A stretch of 64,000 nucleotides of DNA from the NCBI GenBank assembly GCA_944470555.2, contig OX104132.1, positions 5,031,755-5,095,754 on the forward strand, in the 5' to 3' direction. Source of the DNA: Heterobilharzia americana. Its lineage: Eukaryota; Platyhelminthes; Trematoda; Strigeidida; Schistosomatidae. Under the pieces are notes generated by a model. The model ran no database searches. It was not told the DNA's origin and saw only the letters and a list, made by a program, of their open reading frames with translations. A program made the translations under genes and the position numbers. Positions 14,307 through 64,000 of this stretch are shown piece after piece; the first letter of the stretch is position 1, and the number at the start of each line of letters is the position of its first letter.

Positions 14307-16009
14307 ATGTCTGCCCAAAACGCTAGGTCTGAAGCTTTGACACGGATAACGCGGTCGTGCACAAAAACGGCCAAAAACACCCTAGACAACACACTAGTCT
14401 GTACTAGAATACAAACAGAGGTAGGGCAGAACACCGAACTTCTAAAGAAGTGGCCAACCCATGTTTCTAGAATTCCAGTAGCCATCAGACAGGTGACACA
14501 GAGTAGCACTAGCCCGTCACAAACTAGTCCTATCTTGAGCAAGGATCATACCATGCCTGAAAAAGAAGACGACGTAAAAGGCTTCAGAACAAGGCAGCCA
14601 CAAGCAGTTCGCCACAATCCGTAGCACCTTATTCATGGAAGGAAGGCTGTATTACGACACCCGATGGCTGCAGTGTTTGCACCAAAGTTGTTTCGGTAGT
14701 CGATGAGGCATTTGCATGCAACCTATGTCAACGATGGGCGCATTGCCACTGCGACACCAAAGTCCCCCGACAATACTATAAGCTGATGAAGAGACAACCA
14801 TGCAAGTGGTTCTGGTACATCTGTCCAGAGTGCAGGAAAATGCCCGCACTCCGCACAGAAAGCCTGAAGGAGATGCTCTCCGCCACGCAAAAGCTACCAG
14901 CACCCTCGAATAAAGTAGGGTTAACACCAAAGGATAACACAGAGAGACCTGGAAACAGACCTAGAGCTCCAGCTGTGGGCACGCCACCTCGCGTGGGGAC
15001 CATATTAGGTCAAGTCTCCATACCTCCTACCCGGCCCCAGGGGACGTCAAGCGTATGGCCAAAGACATCGACCGCTGAAGCCTCTACGAAACCCATTCCA
15101 AACACCCCACACACCGTGACTGAGAAACAACCAGTGGAATTACTCAAACCCATTGGGAAGTCGGGCGTGCCACCCACAACGAACCCAGGTCACAGGAGGA
15201 CCAACTCGATCATTTTGTTCAACGTCGATGTATCGACAGACTCATTGTTGGTCGAGAGGGAACGGTTTGACAGCCGAATGTGGACCGACTACTGTCAGAT
15301 GCTAGGACTCCCTCCCCTCCCTGCAACTTTGTGTCGCCTTTCTCGAGGAAGCCGTGCACCCCGAGATAAGCCACCCCCTTTACGTGTGTCCCTAAATACT
15401 ACCAAAGAGGCTGAAGACACACTCCTCCTCTCGCGACAACCGGACGTTGTTAATGCCTGTAAAATTCGGGCCAGGCCTGACAAGCCATGGTCAATAAGAG
15501 AGGAGGAGAGAAAGTCAGCGGTTGGAAATCCCAACAGAAACAACACTATAGTTGTACATGGGATTCCAGAATTGCCAAGTGACCGCTCGGTCAAAGATCG
15601 GTACTTTCACGACGTCCAACAATGGCAATGGCTCTCAACCAAAGTTGGTCTCAACAGTATACCGGCCAACAGCGTCAGTAGACTGCCAAGGCCAGCGCAC
15701 CTGAAGACCATACCCAATCCCAGACTACTCGCCGTCCAGTTCGACTCATATGCCTCCCTCACAGACGTTCTACAGGCATGGTATAATGCGAAGGATCGCA
15801 TGGGTGGCTCAATACGTATATGTGAAAGTAAGCCTAGACCCACAAGGCAAGAGGAGAGACGACAACCACCAAGACCTCTGGAGTCAGTGGTCGTCACACA
15901 GGCGCTGACCAGTGAGTTAGATACATCAAGTAAAGAAGCCACCACTGCCACAGCCCCCACCCAAGTTAATAACAAAACACCAAAAAACGGAACAATGCCA
16001 GTCCTATGA
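14307..16009 (+). pseudogene. CR1 ORF1 with PHD zinc finger (one frameshift)
   Basis: The N-terminal part is open in one frame from 14307 to 14624. From about 14560 the family sequence continues in another frame, so one frameshift separates the N-terminus from the rest. A PHD finger begins at 14669: C-x2-C (CSVC), C-x2-C (CNLC), then W-A-H-C, and finally C-P-E-C near 14821-14832, which gives the C4-H-C3 pattern. A proline- and threonine-rich linker follows, then the ORF1 core near 15540-15820 (IVVHGIPE, HDVQQWQWL, FDSYASLTDVLQAWYN), which looks like the RRM-like domain of many non-LTR ORF1 proteins. PHD domains in ORF1 of CR1 elements are known. The product would be an RNA- or chromatin-binding partner of ORF2. 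The frame from 14786 to 16009 alone is 407 codons. Confidence 0.85.
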
Positions 16010-16099
16010 GGACTGGCGAGGGTAGACCCAACCACATAAGCTCATCCTGCGAAAATACACAACCAGACCTCCCCCCTCACCAGGCACACTCTAATATGT

Positions 16100-18912
16100 A
16101 TGTACAGCAACGTTAGGGGGCTAAGAGGGAAGGTAGCAGAAATGAGGACGCTGCGTGCACATCAGCACTCCGACATCATATTCATCACCGAATCCTGGCT
16201 CTCGCCAGACATCTCCGACGAAGAGATGCATGTTACTGGCATGGAACTCTTCCGCAGGGACAGGGAACATAGAGCAGGAGGAGGAGTGGCTATCTACGTA
16301 AACTCTTGTTTAAAGGCAAGGATGGTTAGCGATACGGCCTTAACCCAGCTCCCAGAGTCCCTATGGTGCTACTTCACTCTCCACAGTACCAAATACCTGC
16401 TCGGAGTCATATATCGGTCCCCCACCTGCTCCCCTACACATAAGGAAATGATCATCAAGGCTATCTTAACGACTTCCTCTGCAAATTACGATTCCGTAGT
16501 CATTGCCGGCGACTTCAACACCCCGTCCATCCTCTTCGAGACGGAAGGGAGACGCATCAGATCCTTCAATCAGAAGCTGAAGGATGCAATTAAGACTGCT
16601 GGCCTCTCAGAGAAAGTGGGTGATGCTACACGCTGGGGACCTAACGGAAACGCATCGCGCCTTGACTACGTTCTGACGAACGATGAACTTCTCATTGAGG
16701 ATGTTTGCATCCAACCTCCCCTTGGCCTCAGTGACCACGCTGTAATCACCTTCTCCATGATAACTAGGGAGGCTCTGCAACTGGAGACGCCCAACACCTT
16801 CCCTTGCTACAGCAAGGCCAACTATGAGACCATGAGGGACTACCTCATGAATGCATCATGGCCAGTGGACTGGACTCATCTCACAATAGATGAACACTGG
16901 TTGGAGGTGAAGAAAATAATCACTGGGGCCATCAGTCACAGTGTACCAGAAGTAACACACAGACAATCAATGAGAACCTCATGGTTAAAGCGTGGGACAG
17001 AGAGGCTTATCCGGAGCAAGAAGCAGGCTTGGTTCAAGTGGCTTACATCACGCAGGGAGTCTGACTTCTTGAACTACAAAAGGATTCGCAATCTCTGTAA
17101 CATTAGAGTGCGTAACGACAGATTTTCCTACCAAACAAACTTGGCAGCGAGGTTACAAAGCAACCCCAAAAACCTGTACCGCTTCATGTCAAGAAGAAAG
17201 TCGACCAGTAAGGGAGTGAATCTTGTCACAGGCCATGACGGGAGTGTGCTAAGCAGTCTAGAGATTGCCGAGCTTTTGAGCTCACACTTCCAAGCCCAAC
17301 TCAGCACTGACACAAGATCCACACCGACTCGCCACGACACCGACCAGGTCGCAAATAACGAATACCTCTGTCACGTCTCTATTACAGAGAAAAAGGTGTT
17401 CGAGAAGCTATCTAGGCTACGTCCGGGCAAGTCCCCTGGCTGCGATAACCTGAAACCAGTGGTTCTGAAAAACTGCGCCGAGGTGCTTACCAAACCACTT
17501 CGCAACCTCTTTGAGCACTCAATAGACTCGTGCAAACTCCCTAAAGAATGGAAGAGTGCCATCTTGTCACCCATCTTCAAGGGAGGAGACAGAAAAAGCC
17601 CTGGCAGCTACAGGCCGATTGCCCTACTCCCTATTGTGTCGAAAGTGTTGGTAGCTGACACCATCTGGGAATTCCTCAATAGAGAAAACACTGTCCACAC
17701 TGCTCAGCACGGCTTTCGTAGTGGTCGCTCATGTGCCACCAACTTACTAACTGCCTGGGACGACTGGACACAAAGCTGGGATAATAGAAAACCTGTACAT
17801 GTTGTATTTCTCGACCTAGCCAAAGCATTTGACAGTGTCCCACCCACAGTACTGCTTCACAAGATCATGTCAGCTGGTATAAGTGGACCCCTACTCTCTT
17901 GGTTCAAGGAGTACCTGGAAGGGAGGCAGTTCTGCACTAAAGTGAACAGAATAAGGTCGGAGTGGAGACCGTCGACGTCAGGAGTATCCCAAGGAGCAAT
18001 CCTAGGACCGCTTCTGTTCCTCCTCTTTGTCAACGATCTGCCAGACAAAATATCCTCACCCATCCTCCTCTTCGCTGACGACATAAAAATTTGGAGGGTG
18101 GTAAACGAAGAAGCCGACTGTGCAGCACTACAAAAGGACTTGCAGCAACTCGAGCTCTGGTCGTCGGAAAATGGCCTGAGCTTCAACTGGAAAAGTGCAA
18201 AGTAATGCACATCAGTAAAAATGAGGCAAGTACGACCGACTTCCAGTACATGTTGAGCAACCGTGCTATCACCAGAGTGTCCATGGAGAAAGATTTGGGG
18301 CTCAACTTCTCCGACACCTTGGACACCAGCTCCAACTACAAAGGTATGACAACCAGAGCGAACGCCATTCTACACTTTCTGCGTAGACAGCTTGGCGCCC
18401 TCACTCCCGAACTCTTCCTCACCATTTTCAAATCCTACGTGCGGCCGCACCTAGAGGTCTTCAATACGGTGGCTCCTCCAACACTCAAGAGAGACTCTAA
18501 TCTCCTTGAAAGAATACAAAGAACTGCAACAAAATGTGTTGTGGGGCTAAGGGGAAAGACGTATCCTGAAAGACTTAAACACCTCAACCTATTTACCTTG
18601 GGTTATCGCAGGAAAAGGGGTGACCTCATTATGGCATACAAGATCGCCCATCAGGCAGACCATGCAAACAAATCAATTTTGCCTGCAACTGAACGATCTT
18701 CACGAGGAAACCCCATTAAGATAGCACACCAGAGAGCCAACACCACACTCAGGTCCAAATTTTTCTCCCTAAGAGTATGTGCTTTATGGAATGCCTTACC
18801 GCGACACATCGTTATAGCTCCTTCAATCGACTCTTTCAAGAGGCGATTAGACAGTTATGTCACCTCGCATGGACTACCACGGACGTACTCAGGTAGTCAC
18901 CAACCTCAGTAG
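16100..18912 (+). pseudogene. CR1 ORF2: AP-endonuclease and reverse transcriptase (one frameshift)
   Basis: Open for 701 codons from 16100 to 18205. Endonuclease motifs, by residue: SNVRGL at 3-8, ITESWLS around 31, AGDFN at 136-140, RLDYVLTND from 187, LSDH at 210-213. The reverse transcriptase begins near residue 430: LRPGKSPGCDN at 440-450, PKEWKSAILSPIFKGG at about 481-496, AQHGFRSGRSC from 535, FLDLAKAFDSV at 570-580 (motif A), SGVSQGAILGP at 627-637, and the active-site box FADD at 658-661. All catalytic residues I can check are present. The frame breaks close to 18190, where NLEKCKV is expected but NWKSAK-stop is read; a missing C explains it. The C-terminal domain then runs in the next frame to 18912 (YRRKRGDLIMAYKI, FFSLRVCALWNALP). 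One base therefore separates this from an intact ORF2, so the copy is young. No host gene resembles this arrangement. Confidence 0.92.
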
Positions 18913-37185: not shown

Positions 37186-38706
37186 CAGGAGCTAAGTGGC
37201 CTAAGCTAACGAGGTGTTCTGTTATTGAACTTAAGATATATTTCCGTTCTTTCTTTGCCAGCCAAATTAGGCAGCATTCTCGGACACGTTTTATAAGCGG
37301 ACGCATGTTACGGTCGATGTACTCAGCTCCACAAGAGCAAGTAAACTGGTATACACACATTGATGTGGCCCAATGCTTTGGCTTGTCTTTCACACATTGA
37401 CCAAAACGTTTCTTACACGAGAAAATGATCCGAAGGTTAGCGGCGAAGTATGTTCTGTTTAGGGATTTTGACAGTCGTTTCCTCAAGATGTTTGCAGAAA
37501 TATCATTTTTGAATTCAGGATTCAACAGAAGAATCTTTTTCGTTCAGTTGGGTCCTTTGGCTTTATGTTTTTATCCATAAATCTGAGCGAGAACCTGTTT
37601 TCCGCTAGAGTTCGTCGAAGTATTTGCAGTTCTCCATCAACCGTGTCCTCAATACATATTTTCCTGATCCTCGAGGAAAGTGAATGAATAAGATTTCTTT
37701 TCCTGCATGGAGGGACTGAACTCTGAAAATTAACAAATTGTCCGTTCCACGTAGGCTTTCTGTAGATCGATCTACGAAGTGAACTATCATCTCCTGTTTC
37801 AAGTTGAACATCAAGAAAATGGAAGGTTGAGTTTGATTCTGATTCTAGAGAGAATTTGTTTGAAGAGTGGGCGTTGTTGAAGGTATGAAGCAAGTTTGCA
37901 AGATTCGTATCTTCACCACAAACTATAAACGTGTCATCCATGTATCTTTTGTAGACATGAAGTTCATTGATTGTTGATGATAATTTCACGTTTTGCAGGC
38001 TTTCCATGAAGCAATCAGCTAGGATGGGTCCTAGTGGAGAATCCATCGCCACACCATCTATCCACCTGTAGATCTCATCATTAAATCTGAAGTGTACATT
38101 GTAGGTACATCGAAGGAGAAGCTGTTTTAGGTAGTGAATTAGGATACCAACATCTATGTTATGACATTGAATGAATTCAAATAGGAAACAGATGGTTTCT
38201 GTCAGTGGGACATTTGTAAAGAGGGACACGACATTCAATGAAATCATTCTTTTACCTGTAAAACTAACATTCTTTATTGAGTCAACAAAATCAAATGGGA
38301 CACGTAGACTGTGGTTCAATAGCCTCTTTTTTACAGTTTGTAGTACTTCCACAATCCATTTCACGATTAAGTGATATGGAGAATTGAGCATATCTGGTAT
38401 TCGATGGAGTGGGATGCCTTTTTTGTGTATTCTGAGGAGACCGTATAGATGGGAGATCGTAGAACCCGATAGGCGAAGTTGTTCATATACTTCTTTGCTA
38501 ATGAATGACTCATCTCTCATTTTCTTCAATGTTTTCGACAATTGCAGCTCTGTTTGCTCATCGCGATCTTTCTGTGTTGTCTGATTTAAGAATTTATTGT
38601 TATCGGATAGAATGAGTGGAAGATTTCCAAATAGACTGATTTGTTCAGTGATACTGTTCTGATTGTTCATTTCGAGAGATGATTCAAAATTCTCTACAGG
38701 GTTCAA
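37019..38706 (-). pseudogene. Penelope-like reverse transcriptase with C-terminal GIY-YIG endonuclease (broken)
   Basis: Minus strand. The main frame, 38706-37522, has 394 codons. Recognisable parts: HLYGLLRIHKKGIPL at residues 87-100, SLNVVSLFTNVPL at 156-168, GVAMDSPLGPILAD at 218-231, and YMDDTF at 255-260, the active-site box typical of Penelope. The motif A aspartate (usually S[FL]DVVSLF) is asparagine (residue 158), so one of the three catalytic aspartates is lost. After a frameshift near 37530 the GIY-YIG domain follows (37525-37175): CVYQFTCSCGAEYIDR, with the second 'YIG' as YID, and SSITEHLVSLGH. A TGA at 37175-37177 interrupts the frame, but family sequence continues to a TAA at 37019. 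The family's N-terminal region is missing. The first codon of the main frame is TTG and lies inside the arm, so no genuine start is present. Confidence 0.88.
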
Positions 38707-41730: not shown

Positions 41731-42072
41731 AGTAATGATGGGCAGTGACTAGCAGTGGAATCCAGGATGCGCATTTCGTCCTGTCTGGGACTCGCCAGCT
41801 GGGTCTACCTGCCTCCCAGTGAGTGATGTTGTTCCCACCGGGACTCGGACGCGAGAGCGTTATCCACTACACCGCCGAGCCACGATAGCCCCTTCTTGTG
41901 TGACGGGTATAGGTTTAGTGATATTGCTTGTATTACACCGTCGTTGACTAGACTGAATTGACCAGTCTCTGTTGGCATATGGGCTCCTGTGAGGGTGCCT
42001 CGATATTGCCTGCCTTTTGACTATGTATAGTAATGATGGGGAGTGGCTGGCAGTGGAATCCAGAATGCGTAT
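41731..42072 (-). mobile_element. SM-alpha-like SINE: one full monomer plus a partial unit
   Basis: Minus strand. The segment AGCAGTGGAATCCAGGATGCG (41751-41771) recurs in similar form at 42050-42070, so equivalent ribozyme cleavage points lie 298 bp apart and bound one monomer (about 41766-42063). Inside it is a tRNA-like head with a box A-like TGGCTCGGCGG near 41878-41888 and a box B-like GTCCGAGTCCC near 41840-41850. At its 3' end is a hammerhead ribozyme (see separate entry). The sequence around the cleavage site (CTGGATTCCACTGC) and the overall plan match the schistosome SM-alpha family, a tRNA-related SINE with hammerhead domains. The outer partial unit keeps only the half downstream of the cleavage site. 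Confidence 0.85.
41752..41812 (-). ncRNA. Hammerhead ribozyme, SM-alpha type, one core substitution
   Basis: Minus strand. Stem I pairs CCAG before the core with CTGG after the cleavage site, with a distal GCAG/CTGC pairing. The core box CUGANGA reads CUGGCGA: position N7 may vary, but A6 is G (plus coordinate 41795). Stem II is GUCC/GGAC with loop CAGACA (41778-41791). GAAA is intact (41774-41777). Stem III is the self-complementary TGCGCA. The cleavage triplet is AUC, with cleavage expected between 41766 and 41765. The A6 change lies in the catalytic core and would be expected to weaken or abolish cleavage. The fold is my own reading of the sequence. Confidence 0.85.
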
Positions 42073-46192: not shown

Positions 46193-49100
46193 CAGTCACG
46201 TAGAATGATATGAAGTTCATTAGATGGCTTGTGATTAGAGGTCTCAATTGACTCATTGTTCCTTACTGCTTTAACGCTGGTGGTGACCAGTATTCGGAAC
46301 AGGTTTCCATAGATTTGAATTCTATCTGTGCATTGTGATGTATGCAGGCGCGTCCGAAATGCTTAATGTTCACTTGTGAGGTAGTTTTAAATCAAGTCTC
46401 ACGAAAACGCATTTAGAAATCGAGAGATTTTCTACCAGAAACATTTCAACTCAACCTGGAAAACTTACCATCAATATCTGAAAATGGCGTTGGCAAGAAA
46501 GCGTTTGAATTGGATAACAGATATGATGATCACTTCAGCCCTGAGGTGAGAGAGAAGGTGTCTTCATGAACTAAGATATTGTAAAGTATTGATGCTAATA
46601 CGCACCTACCTCACGTACTTCAGAAAGTATATGGCAGTACATTTTATGTCCAGGAATTTTCTGTTGGGAACATTTCGAGTAAATATGTAGTGAGTATTCC
46701 TATCATCATTCTGAATGCTCACGCTTACCACCAGATGGAAACAACAAGTTGTGATGAATATGTTGATTGTTGCCACGTCGCAGAGGCATGCTGACTGTGA
46801 TGATGATGATGATGTTGACATGGGTGTCACTATCGGCTCTGCAGATTATATGATGCTAGTGTGTTTGGTGGTACTCATGCTTTTTGATGTAGCCCTGGGG
46901 ATTACACATTTTCTGACAAATTTTCACCTTCAGTTTGATTTCGCAGTAAATTAAATCTGTGGATCGTTTCTCCATTCCCAGTGGCACACAGAGTCAATTC
47001 CATCTTATTTAAAGATTTTTGTTTCACACTATCTCATCATAAATAACTTATATTTACATAAAAAGGAGCCGATGATTCGACTAGAATCATCCTCTTGACA
47101 CGACTGACTGTTTGATATTCATTATGTAGAGCCATGACTCAAGTGTTTTTAACTCTACTGAATTTCTAGCAGATCAGATGTAAGTTGTTCCATATTCATC
47201 TCTTTCTAGCTAGTTTCATGAGAAGTCTCTTTGATGTATATTGCTTGGCAGTCTAGGCATTTCATTTTATGTACGCAGTAAGATATTAAAATGTAGGGGG
47301 ATCTCGTCCTTCACATGATCCAACGTATTTTAAAATGTGGTTGATATTCTGTAGAACACTGATAATGCATTGAGCATTCAGCACTCTCCTAATCTCATAC
47401 ATGGTGTGTGACGTTTATGGGATGACTAGTGTTGTAACCACGTTCATCATAAATTACCACCCTATAGATGGTCGTCATCTTTGTCAATAATTTGACAGCG
47501 CTGAATCATCCACTGCGTAAATCTGAAATCAAATCATGATATAAAAGCTCGGATACTGCTCACATTGGCTTGCCACAACTTCAATAAGACTATGAGCCCT
47601 AAATAGTTAGACGTCAGTTAAAACAACTTTGTTCTGTTGTACATTAATTGGGAAGTACGTACAACGAAATGGTTCAAATTACTTTCTTGTAAAGTTGTCT
47701 TTGTGGTTAGTTCATAAAAGGCTTAATTAAGTACCACTCGTTTAGTGATGTCCTCTGACTTTCAAATTCTAATCCTTCAATTTCATCTGCATAGCCACCA
47801 CATCATACATTACTCTTCGGATTCATCTTCTTACGTACACGTTTTGATGATGGGAAGGAGAAAATGAGTCGATGCATGCAAATGAAGCGGGGATGAAAAT
47901 GCTGGAAGTTTATTCACACTTTTATATTCCACAAATAAAATAGAAAAGTATTTTGTGACATAATTTTTGAAGCTATTTCGAATGAAAGCCTACTTGAACA
48001 CATAAAGTCATAGCCTTCTGTACACACTAGTCTTAATTTCGGTGAGTTAATCATCGTGAGAAACTGAAGTGTTTTGAGAAATTTACCATATATTATCACG
48101 TTAATTTGACAACCGATAGCATATGATTCATTGAACAGTGAATGTGAGGTATGTGAGCTTCAGGTTGGTATTCATCATGGTTTGACTTCAGATGGATAAA
48201 CATTAGAAAGAGCACGTGTGACTGACATCAAGCAGATATTTTTTGGGATATGTCATGCAGTTACCTTTTAGCAGTAACTGCAATTTGAGTCGTCACAAGT
48301 TTCAACATGCTGAACTAATTGAAGGTCTATATTACTTTAGAGAAAGGGGAAACATCATAAGAAGAAACAGGTGCAAATCCTTGAAAATATAACTGAAAGA
48401 ATTTCCTCTCCACTTGCTGTTTGGTTATTTAAGATAATAAAAGATATTTTGATCTGATGACTTTTCAACAGACTGATACGATATGAATTAAAGAGTGAAG
48501 GACATACAGAGTGAATGAATGAAAATTGAAGAAGACTTCTTCACGCGTGTAAATAGAGAATTTGGGTTAAAGACATTTCATTGCTCCATCAATCACTGTT
48601 CATTTTATCAAAGTAACTTGTTCATTGTCTTCATATTTATATATCGTTTCCCATTAATCTTTTCATCTTGATGCTGTGGTATACGTGAATACGGGCTATT
48701 TTATTTCAATGATAAGGAAGTTTGGTAGCTCAAGAAAAGGGGTTAACAATAGTATGATGGTCGACGAGCTTTGAGATTGTGTCGTAGACGTTCCATCGAC
48801 CGTCAACAAGGTTGTTGAGATCCTCAGCACAAACTTCATCAAGAAATGAAGCATATTGAAATACTACACAAATATTTAGAAACTTTTTCCTGATATATAG
48901 ATAGTGGGTTGAAAATATGGATGAGAATTGCTGGAATTCCAAATAAACGTCAGTCAAGAGATCCTTGGTTACCCACCTAATCTACAACCTACTCCGAAGG
49001 AAAGTATCCAACCACGAACCAAATGCAAGATATCTGAAAAAGTCAAAGATGAAGAATAGTGTGGCATAACACAATTTTGTCCCAGTAAATACTCTCTTCC

Positions 49101-53184: not shown

Positions 53185-53376
53185 TGAAAGATTTTTAGAC
53201 GTAGTATTCATCATGGACTGATATCAGTTGAGGAACCATTGAAAATCTGGGAGCACTGGACATCTGTTTCGTCCTAGTATGGTATTCCTCAGCAGTACGC
53301 ACCCACGACCCGGCTAGGGATGGAACCCGGGACCTTCAGGTTTCACGGCGAACGCGTTAACCATTGAAAGATTTTT
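53185..53376 (-). mobile_element. Hammerhead SINE copy 3, with 12-bp target duplication
   Basis: The insert is 53197-53364, on the minus strand, flanked on both sides by TGAAAGATTTTT (53185-53196 and 53365-53376). This is a textbook target-site duplication and fixes both ends of the element. The 5' end begins inside box A (ATGGTTAACGCG), so the copy lacks roughly the first dozen bases of the tRNA-like head. Box B reads GGGTTCCATCC. The hammerhead region and a short 3' segment ending ...GATGAATACTACGTCT follow. There is no poly(A) tail. The copy proves that this sequence moves as a discrete retroposed unit. Confidence 0.88.
53249..53306 (-). ncRNA. Hammerhead ribozyme, SINE copy 3
   Basis: Core boxes are intact on minus: CUGAGGA and GAAA, cleavage triplet GUC, cleavage between 53259 and 53258. 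Stem I (GUACUG with CAGUGC, one G-U pair) is fine. Stem II is damaged: AUAC faces GGAC, so two of the four pairs are lost compared with copy 2. Activity is doubtful. Confidence 0.8.
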
Positions 53377-53570
53377 GTTTTCATCTTTGTTTCCATTTTA
53401 TTCAGATAAAATATGTTTTCTTAAGCTAAAAAATCTAATTTTAAACAATTAGCTACTTAAATATAAAATGATGCCTAATCTTGAATGTAATAACCATTTT
53501 TTACAAAGAAAATTGTGAGGGAGTTGTGAAGATTTGGAAATATTTCAAGTTTCGTTGGATTCTGACCCAG

Positions 53571-53623
53571 TGGCTTAACGGTAACGCGCTGGCCGCGGAA
53601 CCTGAAGATCGCGGGTTCGATCC
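53571..53623 (+). promoter_or_regulatory. Internal RNA polymerase III promoter (boxes A and B) of SINE copy 1
   Basis: Box A and box B fit the tRNA consensus (TRGCNNARYGG-like and GGTTCGANTCC-like) with a 42-bp offset between their starts. In copy 2 box B is GGGTGCGATCC, with the conserved T changed, and in copy 3 it is GGGTTCCATCC, so copy 1 has the best promoter although its ribozyme is damaged. Confidence 0.75.
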
Positions 53624-53638
53624 CTGCTGGTGCGGTCG

Positions 53639-53697
53639 TGGGTGCGCACTGCTGAGGAGTCTCATACTAGGACGGAACGGCTGTCCAGTGCTCCCAG
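53639..53697 (+). ncRNA. Hammerhead ribozyme, SINE copy 1, one core substitution
   Basis: CUGAGGA at 53652-53658. Stem II is GUCU/GGAC with one G-U pair. GAAA has become GGAA (A13 to G, within 53674-53677). The cleavage triplet is GUC with cleavage expected between 53685 and 53686. Stem I GCACUG/CAGUGC is perfect. The A13 change should impair catalysis. Confidence 0.85.
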
Positions 53698-54337
53698 GTT
53701 TCCTTTGTTCCTCCAACTGATGTCAGTCTTCGATGAATAACAACTTGAAGTAGTATATTAGAACAAATAACACAGTAAACAAATATTTTGTATTATTCCT
53801 CAACGTTTCGATCTTGCTAGGAGGATCCTTTTCAAGAGTATGAATCTGACATTAAGTTTTCAGGTTAATATTCAAGTTTTGGTGCACAAAGTGGTGACCT
53901 TTACAATCATCCAATTACATAGTGATATGGAGAAAAGATCAATGTAATACAGGTGAGTGAATAAGCAACTCGGTCAGAGAGGTTTTTCTGTTGTGCGAGT
54001 AAGGTGGGACAAAAAATAGGGTGGTAAAATTTTTTAGTTTGTCTATGAAAAGTACAATGGGGTTGTGAGACATCAAGGGTGAGAAAGATAAGGTTACCAG
54101 TTTGGAAGGATGAATATTTGAAGATGAGACAATATATCTTAAATAAATAATAATAATAATGATAACCATAAATGTACTTTTGATAACATTTGAAGTATAT
54201 TTTGAATATTAACCTGAAAACTTAATGTCAGATTCATACTCTTGAAAAGGATCCTCCTAGCAAGATCGAAACGTTGAGGAATACATACAAAATATTTGTT
54301 TACTTTGTTATTTGTTCTAATATACTACTTCAAGTTG

Positions 54338-54514
54338 TTATTCATCGAAGACTGACATCAGTTGGAGGAACAAAGGAAACCTGGGAGCACTGGACACCTG
54401 TTTCGTCCTAGTACGGGACTCCTCAGCAGTGCGCACCCACGACCCCACCAGCAGGGATCGCACCCGCGACCTTCAGGTTCCGCGACCAGCGCGTTACCAT
54501 TGAGCCACTGGGTC
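54338..54514 (-). mobile_element. Hammerhead SINE copy 2
   Basis: About 177 bp on minus, with box A TGGCTCAATGG and box B GGGTGCGATCC. It has the same plan as copy 1 and sits in the mirrored arm of the inverted repeat. This copy carries the complete ribozyme. Confidence 0.87.
54380..54438 (-). ncRNA. Hammerhead ribozyme, SINE copy 2, all core residues and stems intact
   Basis: Minus strand, read 5' to 3': stem I strand GCACUG; core CUGAGGA (C3-A9, N7 = G); stem II GUCC, loop CGUACUA, GGAC; core GAAA; stem III ACA/UGU closed by a 2-nt GG loop; cleavage triplet GUC; then stem I partner CAGUGC. An outer GGG/CCC pairing extends stem I beyond an internal loop, as in the known SM-alpha hammerheads. 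Cleavage is expected between 54393 and 54392. Every invariant position (CUGANGA, GAAA, NUH) is satisfied and all four pairs of stem II are canonical. I predict an active self-cleaving RNA. The very short stem III loop suggests cleavage is best in dimeric or tandem form. Confidence 0.9.
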
Positions 54515-54543
54515 AGAATCCAATGCTCCATATTTCCAACTTC

Positions 54544-57500
54544 TGTTAGCTCACGATATAGCGCAGAACGCCACCCAATGTCATCGTTGATAATCTGTCC
54601 TCACGGCCATCAGGCTTTGACTCCACCGGGATTACACAAGTGAAAATCCATCCATCATACTAACTCGGTGCCCAAGATTTTTCAAACCATCCAGTCCACT
54701 GTTGGCCAGGATACCTTCAAACATGTTTATGTTACTATTCAACAACATTCAGGCAATTATGTAAGCTTGTAAGCTCTAATATCTGATTGTCAAGTGTATT
54801 GTGTAAGCATTCAATAAAGGTAATATAATTAAACACCTGAATTAGATGAATATGATCTAGAACACATCTTTGACAATAGATGACTTATTGTATGATACGT
54901 TTTGTTATTCTGGCTATATGCCTTCAACTTTTGCTACTTTGGTAAGTTTGTAGATTTTTGCTTCAGTTTAGTAGGAGATACCTTTCTCGGGTTAGGGTAT
55001 AGATAACCATTGAATTTAGACAGAAAAGGATTTATGAATTCTGATTCATCTGTTAAATAAAAATGTATATGTGATCGAATGTATGTGATGATAAAAGGGA
55101 ATAATAATTATGATAAGCGGAGACAAAGAATCAGCTAGAATCTTTATAATTGACTTGCCACTTATGAATTAAATTCTTTGTAATTCAATTAGAATATGGG
55201 GGTAAGTGTAAAAACTGTTTTCATCAAAATATCATTCATTTCATTGTTTAAATGTAACATTTATCGATTGAGATAATTCACCAAATTTGAACTGCTTCCA
55301 TACATACAGACGATGAAGATATTTAAAGACTGAGAGATGAGTGATTCTTGGAGTAGAGTGTATATCTACTAAAACTTCGGGATTGTCAGTCAAGAAAGTA
55401 CTTGTTATGGAAATTTTGCTTAGGTATAACTTCAAAATATCCACCTTGTGAAAGACTACTGTATTGTAAGGAAGTTCCGCATTGCTAAAAACCATCAACT
55501 CAAGTTTAAACTTACATCTTTTAACAAAGTATTATCCATTAACTTATTTGAAGATAATACTGCGTCTGATGAACTATCAGACTTACAGAGGTTGAATATT
55601 TCATCAATAGTTTCTTTCTACTTATTTTCCGTTACCGAGTGAATCGCTACCTCATGCAATGCTGACAGAAATACGAAATTCTCTAAACACCCTCACTACG
55701 AATGTTTGAGGGAAACCACGTTTTCTGCTTGAACTTCACATTAAGTAATAGAAACAACCCGATAGTAAACGTCCTTCTAGAGAGGGGTAGAATGTTTCAA
55801 CGCCGCTGAAAGCATATGAAAATCACTGGATTTGGGATACCTTCTTTCTTGACAATAAACGTTTGAACGTTTTGACGCCTTTTTCTGTTTTCTAAAAACC
55901 CAGTTATCCTATGGATAAATCTTGAAGGTGAATGTTGAGAAGTCCACGCTCGTATCAGTTACTCATTTCATATCAATTTACTTTTGTCTAAATCAACTAA
56001 TCAAACAGTTCACCTCCAAATATGCTACAAACGGAAAGTTGCTATATCAGTGTCAAGACTCATTTTGCCATTTTTTATTGAGTCACACCAAGATTGTTAT
56101 TTATTGAAATAAAATGCTACTTTATTTACGCTGAGAAATGATTCTCTTTCAGTAAATGCTGGGTAAGTTCATTTATGGTATAAACCTCCCATGATTTCAA
56201 CATCTAACGAAGTATATTACGATGTTTCCAGTAATGACAAAAGTACATGAAAACACATGATATGGTTGAAGGGATATTTCTCTTCAATTAGTTCCTCGTC
56301 AATCGCTCTACACTAATATATGTATCATTTCCAAATTATAAAATTACATACCAGTCTAATGGTGATAACTGTTTCATAGTAGGTTATCAGTTGGAAAGTA
56401 TCAAGGGGTGATGATCAATCAGGGTAATTAAAACTGTGGGTGAGGCATTGAATAAGTGTGAGTGATGGGAATTGGGACGAAGCCAATTGAGATATTGAGA
56501 ATAAGACAAAGTAGATCAGCAGAGAGAATCCCCTAGTCGACGAATAACTCTCAGTGTGTGTACAATCGTATTTATTTTAATAACAAGTCAGCAGTAGGTC
56601 ATCAGAATGGAATGTTCTAAGGCGAAACAGTAGGACGTTCCTAGACTAACCATGAAGAAATCTGTTAGGAGAGGGGATTCATCACATATGAATAGCAGAT
56701 GTGTTGCCACTCCAACAATTTTAGCCTGAGCTCTACGTGCACAAGACCTAGATCCATTCTCTTATTCTGGTGTGGTCACAATCCCACCTCAATTGTATTT
56801 ATCGCCTGAACATTCAGCTCTCTCTAATTCAATGAATACTTTCATCTATCTCACCTCACGATTTACCTTCTCACCTGGTCGTCTCAGTTTCTGTATTAAT
56901 TAAAATTCCCGTAAAATATTTTACTCCACTTATGGATTATGACTAATAATATTATTTTGCCGATGCTGGACTGCATATTTTGCTTATCCACCCGGTGGTC
57001 ACGCAACCTCTCTCTCTCAATCTACAAATTATTTACTATTTCAACCCAGAACATTCCTCTTTGATAGCATGATGTTAACTTGTTAGCCGATAAATGATTG
57101 ACTTGTTTGTTTGTTTGTTATCACTTTGAGTAAGAGTGTACAGCCATTGCAAGTGATTCGTCGAGAACAAGAGTTACATCGTTGAATAACGTTGATTGGT
57201 TATTACAATAACTCCATGTTATGCTTGCTGCATGACAAAGCAGCGTTAAGCATCATTACTGTACTTGGAGGAAACATAGTCGAGATGCAGAGATCATGAA
57301 TAACTTTACACCTCTTCACGATAAATAAATTTACTCCTGGAAAATATCTAACAATGTGTTCTGCAGAAGACACATGGCTTTGTTGCATGTGTCATCAGCA
57401 GTGTAAACAACATTCATACATTCAGATGAAAAAAGTAACAACACAGGATCTATCAGTGCGAATATCTTGTTGAATGTGACAGACAGTAAAGTGTCTACAT

Positions 57501-61204: not shown

Positions 61205-64000
61205 ATTATTATCATTTGTTTCTTGGGTTCCTAGTTGAACGTACGGATTCAGTAGCTCGTCTCCAGTGCATTCTCTTCTCTGCAATCTTTTCAACTTAGC
61301 TCCACGACTGCCAAAAGCTCTCATTTCCTCCTCACAAGATCTCCTCCAAGTCACCTTCGCCTCCGACGCCTAACTCGCCGTTTCCCATCTAGGATCCAAT
61401 CGTGGACCTGGCCTGGTGCTTGATGTCCCCGAATGGTCTTCTCAGTGCTTGCCCAATCCATTTCCACTTACTTCTGAATATTTATTGAGCGATAGGTTAT
61501 TCCTTCGTTTGTTTGTTTCATGGCCAGAGTTCCTTTTCGCTTATGCTTATTATTCTGGCAATCTGAACTTCAGTAAGGAACCAGCGTAAGCAGTTAATTA
61601 TGAATATCTTTAGTTTGTTGGTAATGCTTTCGTAACTCCACAGATCTCTCAACCATATAGGAGCACTGACTTGACTGAGTTGGTGTTGAAAATCCGTATC
61701 TTGTTCACGCTTTGTGCTGAGTGCAGAAGATCTCCACACTGGTTTCAGGCTAATGAACGCCTATCTTGCTTTTCCGATTCTGACTTTGACATCCTCGTCT
61801 GTGCCTGTGCCGCCTGTAGTTGAAACATTGCTTCCTAGATAGGTGAAGGAGGTTACTTCCTTTAAGTTTCTCCCGTTGATGGTGATTGGAGTTTGTTGTT
61901 GTTGTTGGAGTTGTTGGTGCGGTATCTTCATCACTTCTGTCTTCTCTATATTCACTTGAAATCCCGTCTTCGCTGCCCTGCCTCTTCTGTCAACTTGTTA
62001 GTTTTCGCCTGTAGACCTTCAAGTTTGTGCGACATCAGACACAAGTCATCACTGGCGAAATCCAAGTCTTCTAGGTTTTTTCCGCGGTCCAGCGTATCCC
62101 CCTCTTCTCGCTCCACACTGTTGTCTGCTGCATGATCCAGTCGACCACAATCAGGAATATCATGGGTGATAGTAGACAGCCTTGTTTCACTCCTGTCTCC
62201 TGTCTTCACTTCAAAAGCATCACTGAGCTTCCCATTATGAATTACTTGGCATGTGGCATCTTCATATAGCTGTTGAATGAGATTGATAAAGGTTTGCGGT
62301 ACTCCATAGTAGTGAAGCAGTTTCCAAATTACCTCTCGGTTGACGCTATCAAAGGCTTTCTCAAAGTGGATAAAATTGAGGTGTAGAGTTGACTGCCATT
62401 CTATACTCTGTTCTATGATGATGAGCAGCGTTGCAATTTGGTCGGCACATGATTTTTTCTTCCTGAATCCAGCCAGCCTGTTCCGGTCGTAGTTTTGAAT
62501 CCAGTGCATCCTTAAGCCTCTCCAGGATGATGCGGCATAATATTTTGCTTGGAGCGGACAAGAGTGTGAGTGATTCCGTGCCAGTCCCTACAAAGACTTA
62601 GGTCTCCCTTCTTTGGGAGTTTGACAGTGTAGCCCTTCTTCCAATCGGCAGGTACCTCTCCATCCATTCTTCCTTCCTTTCAAAACTTCTGTAATAGTGG
62701 TATGAGCATGTCCAGTGCCGACGTCTCTGCGTCTGTTTCCAGTGCTTCTGGAGGAATTCCATCTGGCCCTGCTGCTTTCCCGGATTTCAGTAACATTTTG
62801 GCGATCAGGACTTCCCTTCTGCTTTTGTCGGATGGCTTGTGTTCATTGATTGTTCTGTGGGTGAACTGCTGTTGGTACTTATGGACGAGTTGCAGGTGGT
62901 GGTGGTTACAGTCGATTCAAGTGGTCAGCCAAACATTTCCTTTCTTTCTCCTCTTCAGTACAAACTAAGTTCCTTCACTACCTTTCACTGGTTCCATCAT
63001 TGGTATTCATCTCTTCCCAGATCGATAGAAACCAGGTTAATTGACACAATCTTGTGCGGTCTCTGTCTCTCCTACCAGTAGGCTGTTCTGTTTCACTTGC
63101 CAATGTGTCGCAGAAGTGTCTTTTGTCTTTGTGCACACTCTTCTTCACGTCTTTGTCCAGTGCAGTGTTTTATCGGTTGTGTTCAGTTCCTCTTTCCGTT
63201 GTTCATCCCATGCACTGCATTGAACTGTACTGCACTGGTTCATCTTCTGCTTCACCATCTTCCTTATCCTCCTCTTTCAGCTTGCATGTGGCCGTCGAGA
63301 TCCATTCCTTGCCTTGTCTTGTCTTATTTATCTCTTCTTCTTTCTTCCTAACATGGTTATGTAGGTTTCCTTCCACGTCTCTTACACAAAGTTCCAGGTT
63401 CCTTTCAAGCGCGTTTCCTCGGGGATGTTCCCTGATGTCTCCCATTTCTTCACACTGGTTGACTGACATGAAGATGTCTCTTGCAGTTTCTTCCTTCAGT
63501 GCAGTCTCTGTTCCCAGTGTTGCATTTCAATCGTGGTTTGACATCATCAGCTTCTTTGAGGACCCTCAACTCGATTTTGAAAGTGGGTTCCTTGCACTAG
63601 ATAATGAGGAGTCAGAACCACCTACACCTGTTCCACTTCTTCAAATTGTGTCGAGTATGCTGCGTCTCCACCTTCTTCAGATTCAGATCCAGTCGATCTG
63701 ATTTTAGTGTATCCATTTGGCGAAATCGCTTTATGGATATCCTCGTGTTTGTACACACTACCTCAAATCATCAAATCGTTGAATGCGCAGAAGTCTGCAA
63801 ACAGTTCTCAATCCTCATTGATTTCGCCGAGTGTCTCTCGACTTGTGATGAGTCTTTTTGCTGTGTTGTCCACTCCCAGTTCGCCATTCATGTCACCCCA
63901 CTCATTAGAAGTTTGATGTCACCATCGCCATCTGCAGTGCGGTTTTGAATACTACTGCTTGCAGTTGCCTGTAAAATTCCTTATTCTTCACTTAAACTGC
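61205..64000 (-). pseudogene. SR2-like RTE retrotransposon, long copy (copy D), cut by the window edge
   Basis: Minus strand. From the right edge: endonuclease remnants near 63885-63790 (DMNGELGVDN and ELFADFCAFNDL, matching GDxNAKVGxDN and FANLCAFNKL of the family); linker with KEWISTATCK near 63310; SGKAAGPDGIPPEALETDAE near 62790-62730; DWKKGYTVKLPKKGDLSLC near 62650-62590; PSKILCRIILERLKDALDSK near 62550-62490; AFDSVNREVIWKLL near 62350-62310 (motif A). The QG motif region (after FEVKTG, near 62190) is destroyed by indels, and the active-site box reads FASDD, with an extra serine. NIEKTEVMKIP and the glutamine run follow near 61950, then the C-terminal region, ending near 61205 in an A/T-rich tail. 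It is the longest copy of the family here but has many breaks. Confidence 0.87.

Follow-up and report, generated by a model that had tools for sequence, protein, structure and literature searches.

We consider it very likely that the type I hammerhead on the minus strand of our window, a 64,000-bp stretch of Heterobilharzia americana DNA, lies in a truncated copy of an abundant, non-autonomous retroposon that carries pol III boxes, that would be multimeric or circular as RNA, that would be inserted by a LINE enzyme, and that probably has its counterpart in the W26.2 or W27.2 family of Schistosoma mansoni. The hammerhead is real and probably active. Four hammerheads occur in the 64-kb window, and this one, in the repeat copy that we call A, is the only intact one among them (Table 1).

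Table 1. Coordinates of the hammerheads, the repeat copies and their associated features in the window.
Feature	Position	Strand	Evidence
Copy D, a separate SM-alpha-like element: hammerhead with core CUGGCGA, A6 = G	41760..41804	-	54.0 bits
Copy C, 3' target-site duplication, AAAAATCTTTCA, exact 12 bp	53185..53196	-	
Copy C, old, 82-83% identical, 168 bp between exact 12-bp repeats	53197..53364	-	blastn alignment 53205-53367
Copy C hammerhead, core letters unchanged, stem II reduced to 2 of its 4 pairs	53253..53298	-	29.3 bits, below cut-off
Copy C, 5' target-site duplication, AAAAATCTTTCA	53365..53376	-	
Inverted 3'-end piece (positions 358-399, 88%) adjoining copy B, -/+ inversion	53510..53551	-	blastn
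Copy B, monomer positions 171-365	53555..53749	+	blastn
Box A of copy B, 0 mismatches	53571..53581	+	
Copy B, box B GTTCGATCC, exact	53615..53623	+	match to consensus
Copy B hammerhead, core A13 = G (base 53675)	53646..53691	+	Rfam 38.3 bits; alignment
3' flank of copy B, common to copy A	53750..53875	+	
3' flank of copy A, common to copy B and L011, not to other fetched family copies	54202..54328	-	
Copy A (monomer positions 66-365), a 5'-truncated repeat, 96% identical to the L026 monomer	54329..54629	-	blastn
Extended stem I of copy A, with UGGG/CCCA as 4 outer pairs beyond a 3x1 internal loop and 6 inner pairs	54377..54442	-	
Type I hammerhead of copy A, core intact	54387..54432	-	Rfam 39.4 bits; strict pattern
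Copy A, box B GTGCGATCC, one letter off GWTCRANNC	54455..54463	-	match to consensus
Copy A, box A TGGCTCAATGG, exact	54497..54507	-	match to consensus

Results

Structure of the intact hammerhead

The first-pass annotation had proposed an intact hammerhead at this site, and its coordinates, strand, anatomy, invariant core and stems of 6, 4 and 3 bp all agree with our analysis, as does the predicted cleavage between 54393 and 54392. The covariance search of the window with Rfam matched the type I model (RF00163) above its cut-off of 34 bits (E=1.8e-6). Read along the minus strand from 54432 to 54387, stem I (GCACUG/CAGUGC) has six of six pairs, stem II (GUCC/GGAC) has four of four with a loop of 7 nt, and stem III (ACA/UGU) is closed by a GG loop of 2 nt. 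Every core letter is present (CUGAGGA, GAAA and GUC), so that CUGANGA, GAA, a UH cleavage site and an open stem I were all found. A strict pattern, composed of the core, all four stem II pairs, at least five of the six stem I pairs and three stem III pairs, matched this site alone on the two strands of the 64 kb and matched in 0 of 200 order-1 Markov windows. The outer pairs of the extended stem I are identical in copies A, B and C. Both A6 and A13 have roles in the hammerhead core, and the copy B hammerhead, with its changed A13, is predicted to be inactive or very slow. In the portions of the literature used here, G12 is described as essential or as the general base (PMC2576457, PMC6155905).

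Folding was evaluated through model energies, which are not a measure of activity. In the single-strand RNAfold prediction the preferred fold pairs the core, and the hammerhead is less favoured by 4.9 kcal/mol in the common form of the family, 4.1 in A, 7.2 in B, 0.4 in C, 4.7 in D and 4.0 in the Rfam consensus. Because the Rfam consensus and the common form misfold as well, we dropped the single-strand misfold as a sign of inactivity. When two strands were folded together, the best structure of the common form was a double hammerhead (gap 0.0 kcal/mol); the corresponding gaps of the Rfam consensus and of D, C, B and A were 1.2, 2.6, 4.6, 7.1 and 7.9 kcal/mol. The fold energy was not lower than that of shuffled sequences, 40 of 200 of which were as good. 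Standard pairs occupy 49 of 51 cells when copies A, B and C are taken together, compared with 29-49% in slid controls; none of the 17 pairs has changed on both sides, and shuffled partners reach the same pairing value in 500 of 500 trials, so that covariation among these three copies is no proof of the fold.

Copies of the repeat in the window

The first-pass annotation did not list two further copies of the family, at 53.2 and 53.6 kb, each with a hammerhead. Copy B is 94.6% identical to copy A over 224 bp, and copy C is 82% identical over 167 columns. Copies A and B lie in opposite orientation and have about 126 bp of nearly identical 3' flank; they differ at 11 of 145 columns in the repeat part and at 2 of 177 in the shared flank (p=0.0039, for a split chosen after seeing the data). 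Several readings of this neighbourhood were dropped: a 314-bp unit for copy B, because nearly all other scored genomic matches stop near position 198; a 13/14 target-site duplication of copy B, because its 5' half is the repeat's own inverted 3' end; and an inverted duplication of B, flanks included, as the source of copy A, because the words upstream in A belong to the family sequence. The repeat part of A is also 96-98% identical to the other scored copies compared with 94.2% to B, which argues against the same duplication. A 6-bp flanking repeat at copy A was equalled in 99 of 500 shuffles and had been measured at ends later found not to be those of A. The neighbourhood of B and C is repeated at L011 (contig 6, about 121 kb before copy A), apparently through segmental duplication, and a weak match to the repeat part just after the ribozyme (75.6% over 45 bp) occurs at 48158-48202 of the minus strand.

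Pol III boxes and extent of the element

Boxes A and B had been placed upstream of the ribozyme, and in copy A both are present there, box A in exact form and box B one letter away from the consensus. By the consensus, box A is exact in A and B and one letter off in D, whereas box B is exact in copy B and one letter off in A, C and D; copy C is cut off within box A. An intact ribozyme and intact boxes occur together in none of the copies in the window. The altered letter in copy A is a T to G substitution that is absent from the other 19 family rows with a readable box B, and the family box B is GGTTCGATC in 14 of the 20 readable rows among 28 aligned.

The element had also been described as tRNA-headed and 179 bp long. 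This description is not right, because the boxes, at monomer positions 187 and 231, are away from the 5' end of the element: upstream of them the family sequence runs for about 105 bp more in copy A and for up to about 175 bp in others. Alignment of the fetched loci places the 5' end farther out, and the 3' end farther in, than our first 322-nt query suggested. ARAGORN at its default setting called no tRNA, and the Rfam tRNA model had no match at E up to 10. At lowered thresholds the ARAGORN calls conflict, with Phe for A, Arg or Pro for B, a call on the other strand for C, and Ser or Glu for D. A tRNA origin of the element is thus weakly indicated.

Abundance and common form in the genome

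We searched the source genome of approximately 665 Mb (664,890,237 bp in 337 contigs) with 35-nt windows built from the letters of young copies. The family ribozyme pattern, with up to 3 mismatches, gave 6736 + 6713 = 13,449 matches in the whole genome, the window just 3' of the ribozyme 5290 + 5198 = 10,488, and the window just 5' of it 1482 + 1367 = 2849; each control gave 0. When 40 of the 4162 first-look candidates for the 322-nt query were scored, 43 matches were obtained, among which only A, B and L011 match the full 322 nt; the other long matches from these candidates end at query positions 193-206 with 96-98% identity.

Copy A was aligned with the 27 fetched copies most like it, which are hence young (28 rows). 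The core letters are intact in 22 of the 27 (23 of 28 with A), mutated in 2 and unreadable by our script in 3. Among the 25 rows in which stem III could be read, A, L024 and L036 lack the palindrome ACAGCUGU, which the other 22 keep; we therefore dropped drift of stem III within the family as a main theme. The common family form reaches 47.8 bits with RF00163. Copy A differs from most family copies in both box B and stem III. Because of its GG stem III and its changed box B, this copy should act at most as a monomer and should be transcribed mainly by read-through.

A general hammerhead pattern gave 6340 + 6675 matches in the genome compared with 1475 + 1366 in the control. Because this pattern takes 14 nt for stem II with its loop and misses the common form, which has 15 nt, SM-alpha-like and other hammerheads add thousands to the family counts. 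A motif with a GCCTTG/CAAGGT stem I and the core CTGATGA, below the Rfam cut-off, was seen at L007:1495-1540 and at about 1500-1600 of L008, where a box-B-like GGTTCGAATCCC lies on the same strand; it is possibly a third hammerhead type in this genome. A 29-letter pattern had 0 matches in viral_contigs and 0 in genome_contigs, neither of which is expected to hold flatworm DNA.

Structure of the insertions

Four monomers in L026, starting at 929, 1331, 1733 and 2135, give a period of 402 bp. To sample insertions we took contig 1 and its first 30 exact matches to the ribozyme core (L039-L068). L047 coincides with L048, and L050 with L051, which leaves 28 places, and some of the loci appear to be duplicated (L045/L046, L064/L065). 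Of the 30 loci, 10 contain a head-to-tail join across 402|1 and 17 contain abutting -/+ inversions, with heads together; +/- inversions, with tails together, were found in 0 of the 30. Inversions that are heads-together only are known from LINE-1 as the trace of twin priming during target-primed reverse transcription. The joins imply that the copied RNA was circular or exceeded one unit in length. The predicted ribozyme cut falls after monomer position 301, and insertion starts, which are scattered, do not cluster there, the nearest to 302 being 294 and 298; linear cut monomers are therefore not what is inserted. Upstream, the fetched copies end at varied points, as 5' truncation leaves them. 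Taken by their arrangement, the insertions look as if they were copied with twin priming from multimeric or circular RNA.

Apparent maintenance of the ribozyme

The head-to-tail joins within insertions, and the insertion ends that do not gather at the cut site, would also suit a ribozyme that is a passenger, in which case the repeat would spread without cutting, and cutting might even be avoided while multimers are inserted. The degree to which the ribozyme has been kept bears on this alternative. We compared non-central hits in the fetched loci that span monomer positions 205-355, binned by identity to the monomer, with copy C entering three times and the duplicates L045/L046 both included. 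Below 82% identity (n=7 hits) divergence is 0.155 in the ribozyme compared with 0.290 upstream and 0.260 downstream; at 82-90% (n=8) the values are 0.086, 0.276 and 0.121; at 90-96% (n=6) they are 0.070, 0.062 and 0.019; and above 96% (n=14) they are 0.011, 0.025 and 0.007. When each distinct copy below 90% identity is counted once, divergence is lower in the ribozyme than in the upstream part in 12 of 12, and lower than in the downstream part in 10 of 12. This constitutes moderate evidence, because local alignments favour well-kept stretches. In young copies of 90-96% identity the ribozyme is not less diverged than its flanks, and this absence of special conservation is what a passenger would show. 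Older copies that keep the ribozyme better than the flanks argue the other way, and so does the excess of genomic matches to the ribozyme over those to the 3' window and over those to the 5' window, though truncation should favour the 3' window; this excess despite 5' truncation also points to a ribozyme that is kept, with the reservation that the windows come from young copies. We consider a mere passenger unlikely. The ribozyme motif looks maintained, and the pattern of divergence is as expected if the source copies need the ribozyme and the inserted copies do not.

Other features of the window

An RT ORF of 394 aa on the minus strand at 37522-38706, which matches RVT_1 only in Pfam and which we take to be Penelope-like, has its nearest relatives in Trichobilharzia szidati (52%) and Schistosoma rodhaini (50%), among the 120 of 184 matches listed. 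On the plus strand, 14561-18912 contains three ORFs: one of 482 aa that has no Pfam match, then the endonuclease-RT ORF of 721 aa, then one of 277 aa that lies in another frame; the best relative of the endonuclease-RT ORF is at 53%, and the best named match of the ORF at 16040-18205 is T. szidati among the candidates scored. An RT piece at 61952-62587 is most similar to H. americana (72% over 85%, and another at 89% over 49%), with T. szidati at 63% over 81%, among the 120 of 207 matches listed. The G+C content drops along the window from 43-50% in 1-24000 to 36-37% in 32000-60000.

Discussion

According to the model that we prefer, the RNA of this repeat would be made from its pol III boxes or by read-through and would be multimeric or circular when copied. 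Its insertion would be the work of a LINE enzyme, through target-primed reverse transcription that often involves twin priming. The hammerhead would cut multimers into 402-nt units after monomer position 301, and it would cut best as a pair of ribozymes, because the family stem III ACAGCUGU is a palindrome. A narrower version would regard the family as a retrozyme with its own pol III boxes, which passes through 402-nt circles or multimers by means of a palindromic dimer ribozyme and is copied by a LINE enzyme with twin priming, so that thousands of insertions would carry head-to-tail joins and inversions with heads together. The unit-length circular RNA of retrozymes would be in keeping with the 10 of 30 loci that have head-to-tail joins, and we put this version forward tentatively, as possible but doubtful.

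If this narrower version is true, it would tie the hammerhead SINEs of schistosomes, the W satellites and the retrozymes of animals into one life cycle. Why some repeats carry a self-cutting ribozyme is a general question, and the present genome, with its 13,449 matches to the ribozyme pattern, shows what was inserted. The material inserted at the sampled loci appears as pieces of multimeric or circular RNA, not as cut linear monomers, and the link between ribozyme, satellite array and retrotransposition becomes testable by genome-wide counts of joins and ends.

Two other identities of the repeat need to be considered. The first is the terminal repeat of a Penelope-like element, which the RT ORF on the minus strand of the window might bring to mind. 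Penelope-like elements are described, in the part of the source used here, as carrying minimal type I hammerheads (PMC7761336). That ORF, however, is about 15 kb away, matches to the 3' flank near it are at chance level (E 1.1 or worse), and no Rfam hammerhead adjoins it at E up to 1, so that such an origin is very improbable. The second is a plain, diverged copy of SM-alpha. The layout of the repeat is similar to that of the SM-alpha-like unit at 41.7 kb, but the copy A repeat has no blastn match to this unit at E up to 5, and stem I, the stem II loop and the tail all differ; we give this reading hardly any weight. A second SM-alpha-like fragment (86.8% over 53 bp) lies at 42020-42072 of the minus strand and starts a few bases before the cut site; its interpretation as a cleavage product was rejected.

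The proposal of a second hammerhead family holds insofar as the repeat is separate from the SM-alpha-like unit of the window, but the suggestion that the family is undescribed is unsupported in view of W25.2, W26.2 and W27.2. According to the part of the satellite survey drawn on here (PMC8490949), four W families of S. mansoni carry hammerheads, W36.2 being SM-alpha and the others weakly similar to it, with lengths of 415-428 bp for W25.2, 399-402 for W26.2, 403 for W27.2 and 332-335 for W36.2. The same account reports orthologues of W25.2, W27.2 and W36.2 in all species examined, and cleavage in vitro by three of five tested candidates (W25.2 and W36.2 variants), the two others having a core mutation or a deletion of the cleavage site (PMC8490949). 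We think it likely that the present family is a local form of W26.2 or W27.2 (or of W25.2, or of Sj-alpha), which we matched by description only. This identity was judged likelier because the 402-bp period agrees with the lengths given above for W26.2 and W27.2; these families also have 25,162 and 55,303 autosomal pieces, in tandem and dispersed copies, and hammerheads weakly similar to SM-alpha (PMC8490949). Against it, the portion of the survey used here states that the W26.2 hammerhead was not found in S. japonicum (PMC8490949). A literature search with sequence strings returned no ribozyme paper by title. The W-family identity is compatible with our best explanation and bears on novelty alone; as a described object, the repeat is probably already known from S. 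mansoni.

In kind, the family is a relative of SM-alpha, and it is probably the counterpart of W26.2 or W27.2. SM-alpha and Sj-alpha are SINE-like elements with a hammerhead (sources among PMC8490949, PMC2770079, PMC5993326 and PMC2576457, each used in part), and SM-alpha resembles the present repeat in having a type I ribozyme together with pol III boxes; it differs in the length of W36.2 and, as compared through the SM-alpha-like unit of the window, in stem I and the stem II loop. Metazoan retrozymes, as far as the source is used here, are likewise short repeats with a type I hammerhead, a weak stem III and possible action as dimers, for which a circular RNA stage has been proposed or shown, whereas their units are about 150-300 bp and are described as without promoters, compared with 402 bp and pol III boxes here (PMC7761336). 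W26.2 and W27.2, compared by description only, are in S. mansoni described mainly as W-chromosome satellites in the part of the survey cited (PMC8490949), but they share with the present family a monomer of about 402 bp, tandem and dispersed copies, and a hammerhead.
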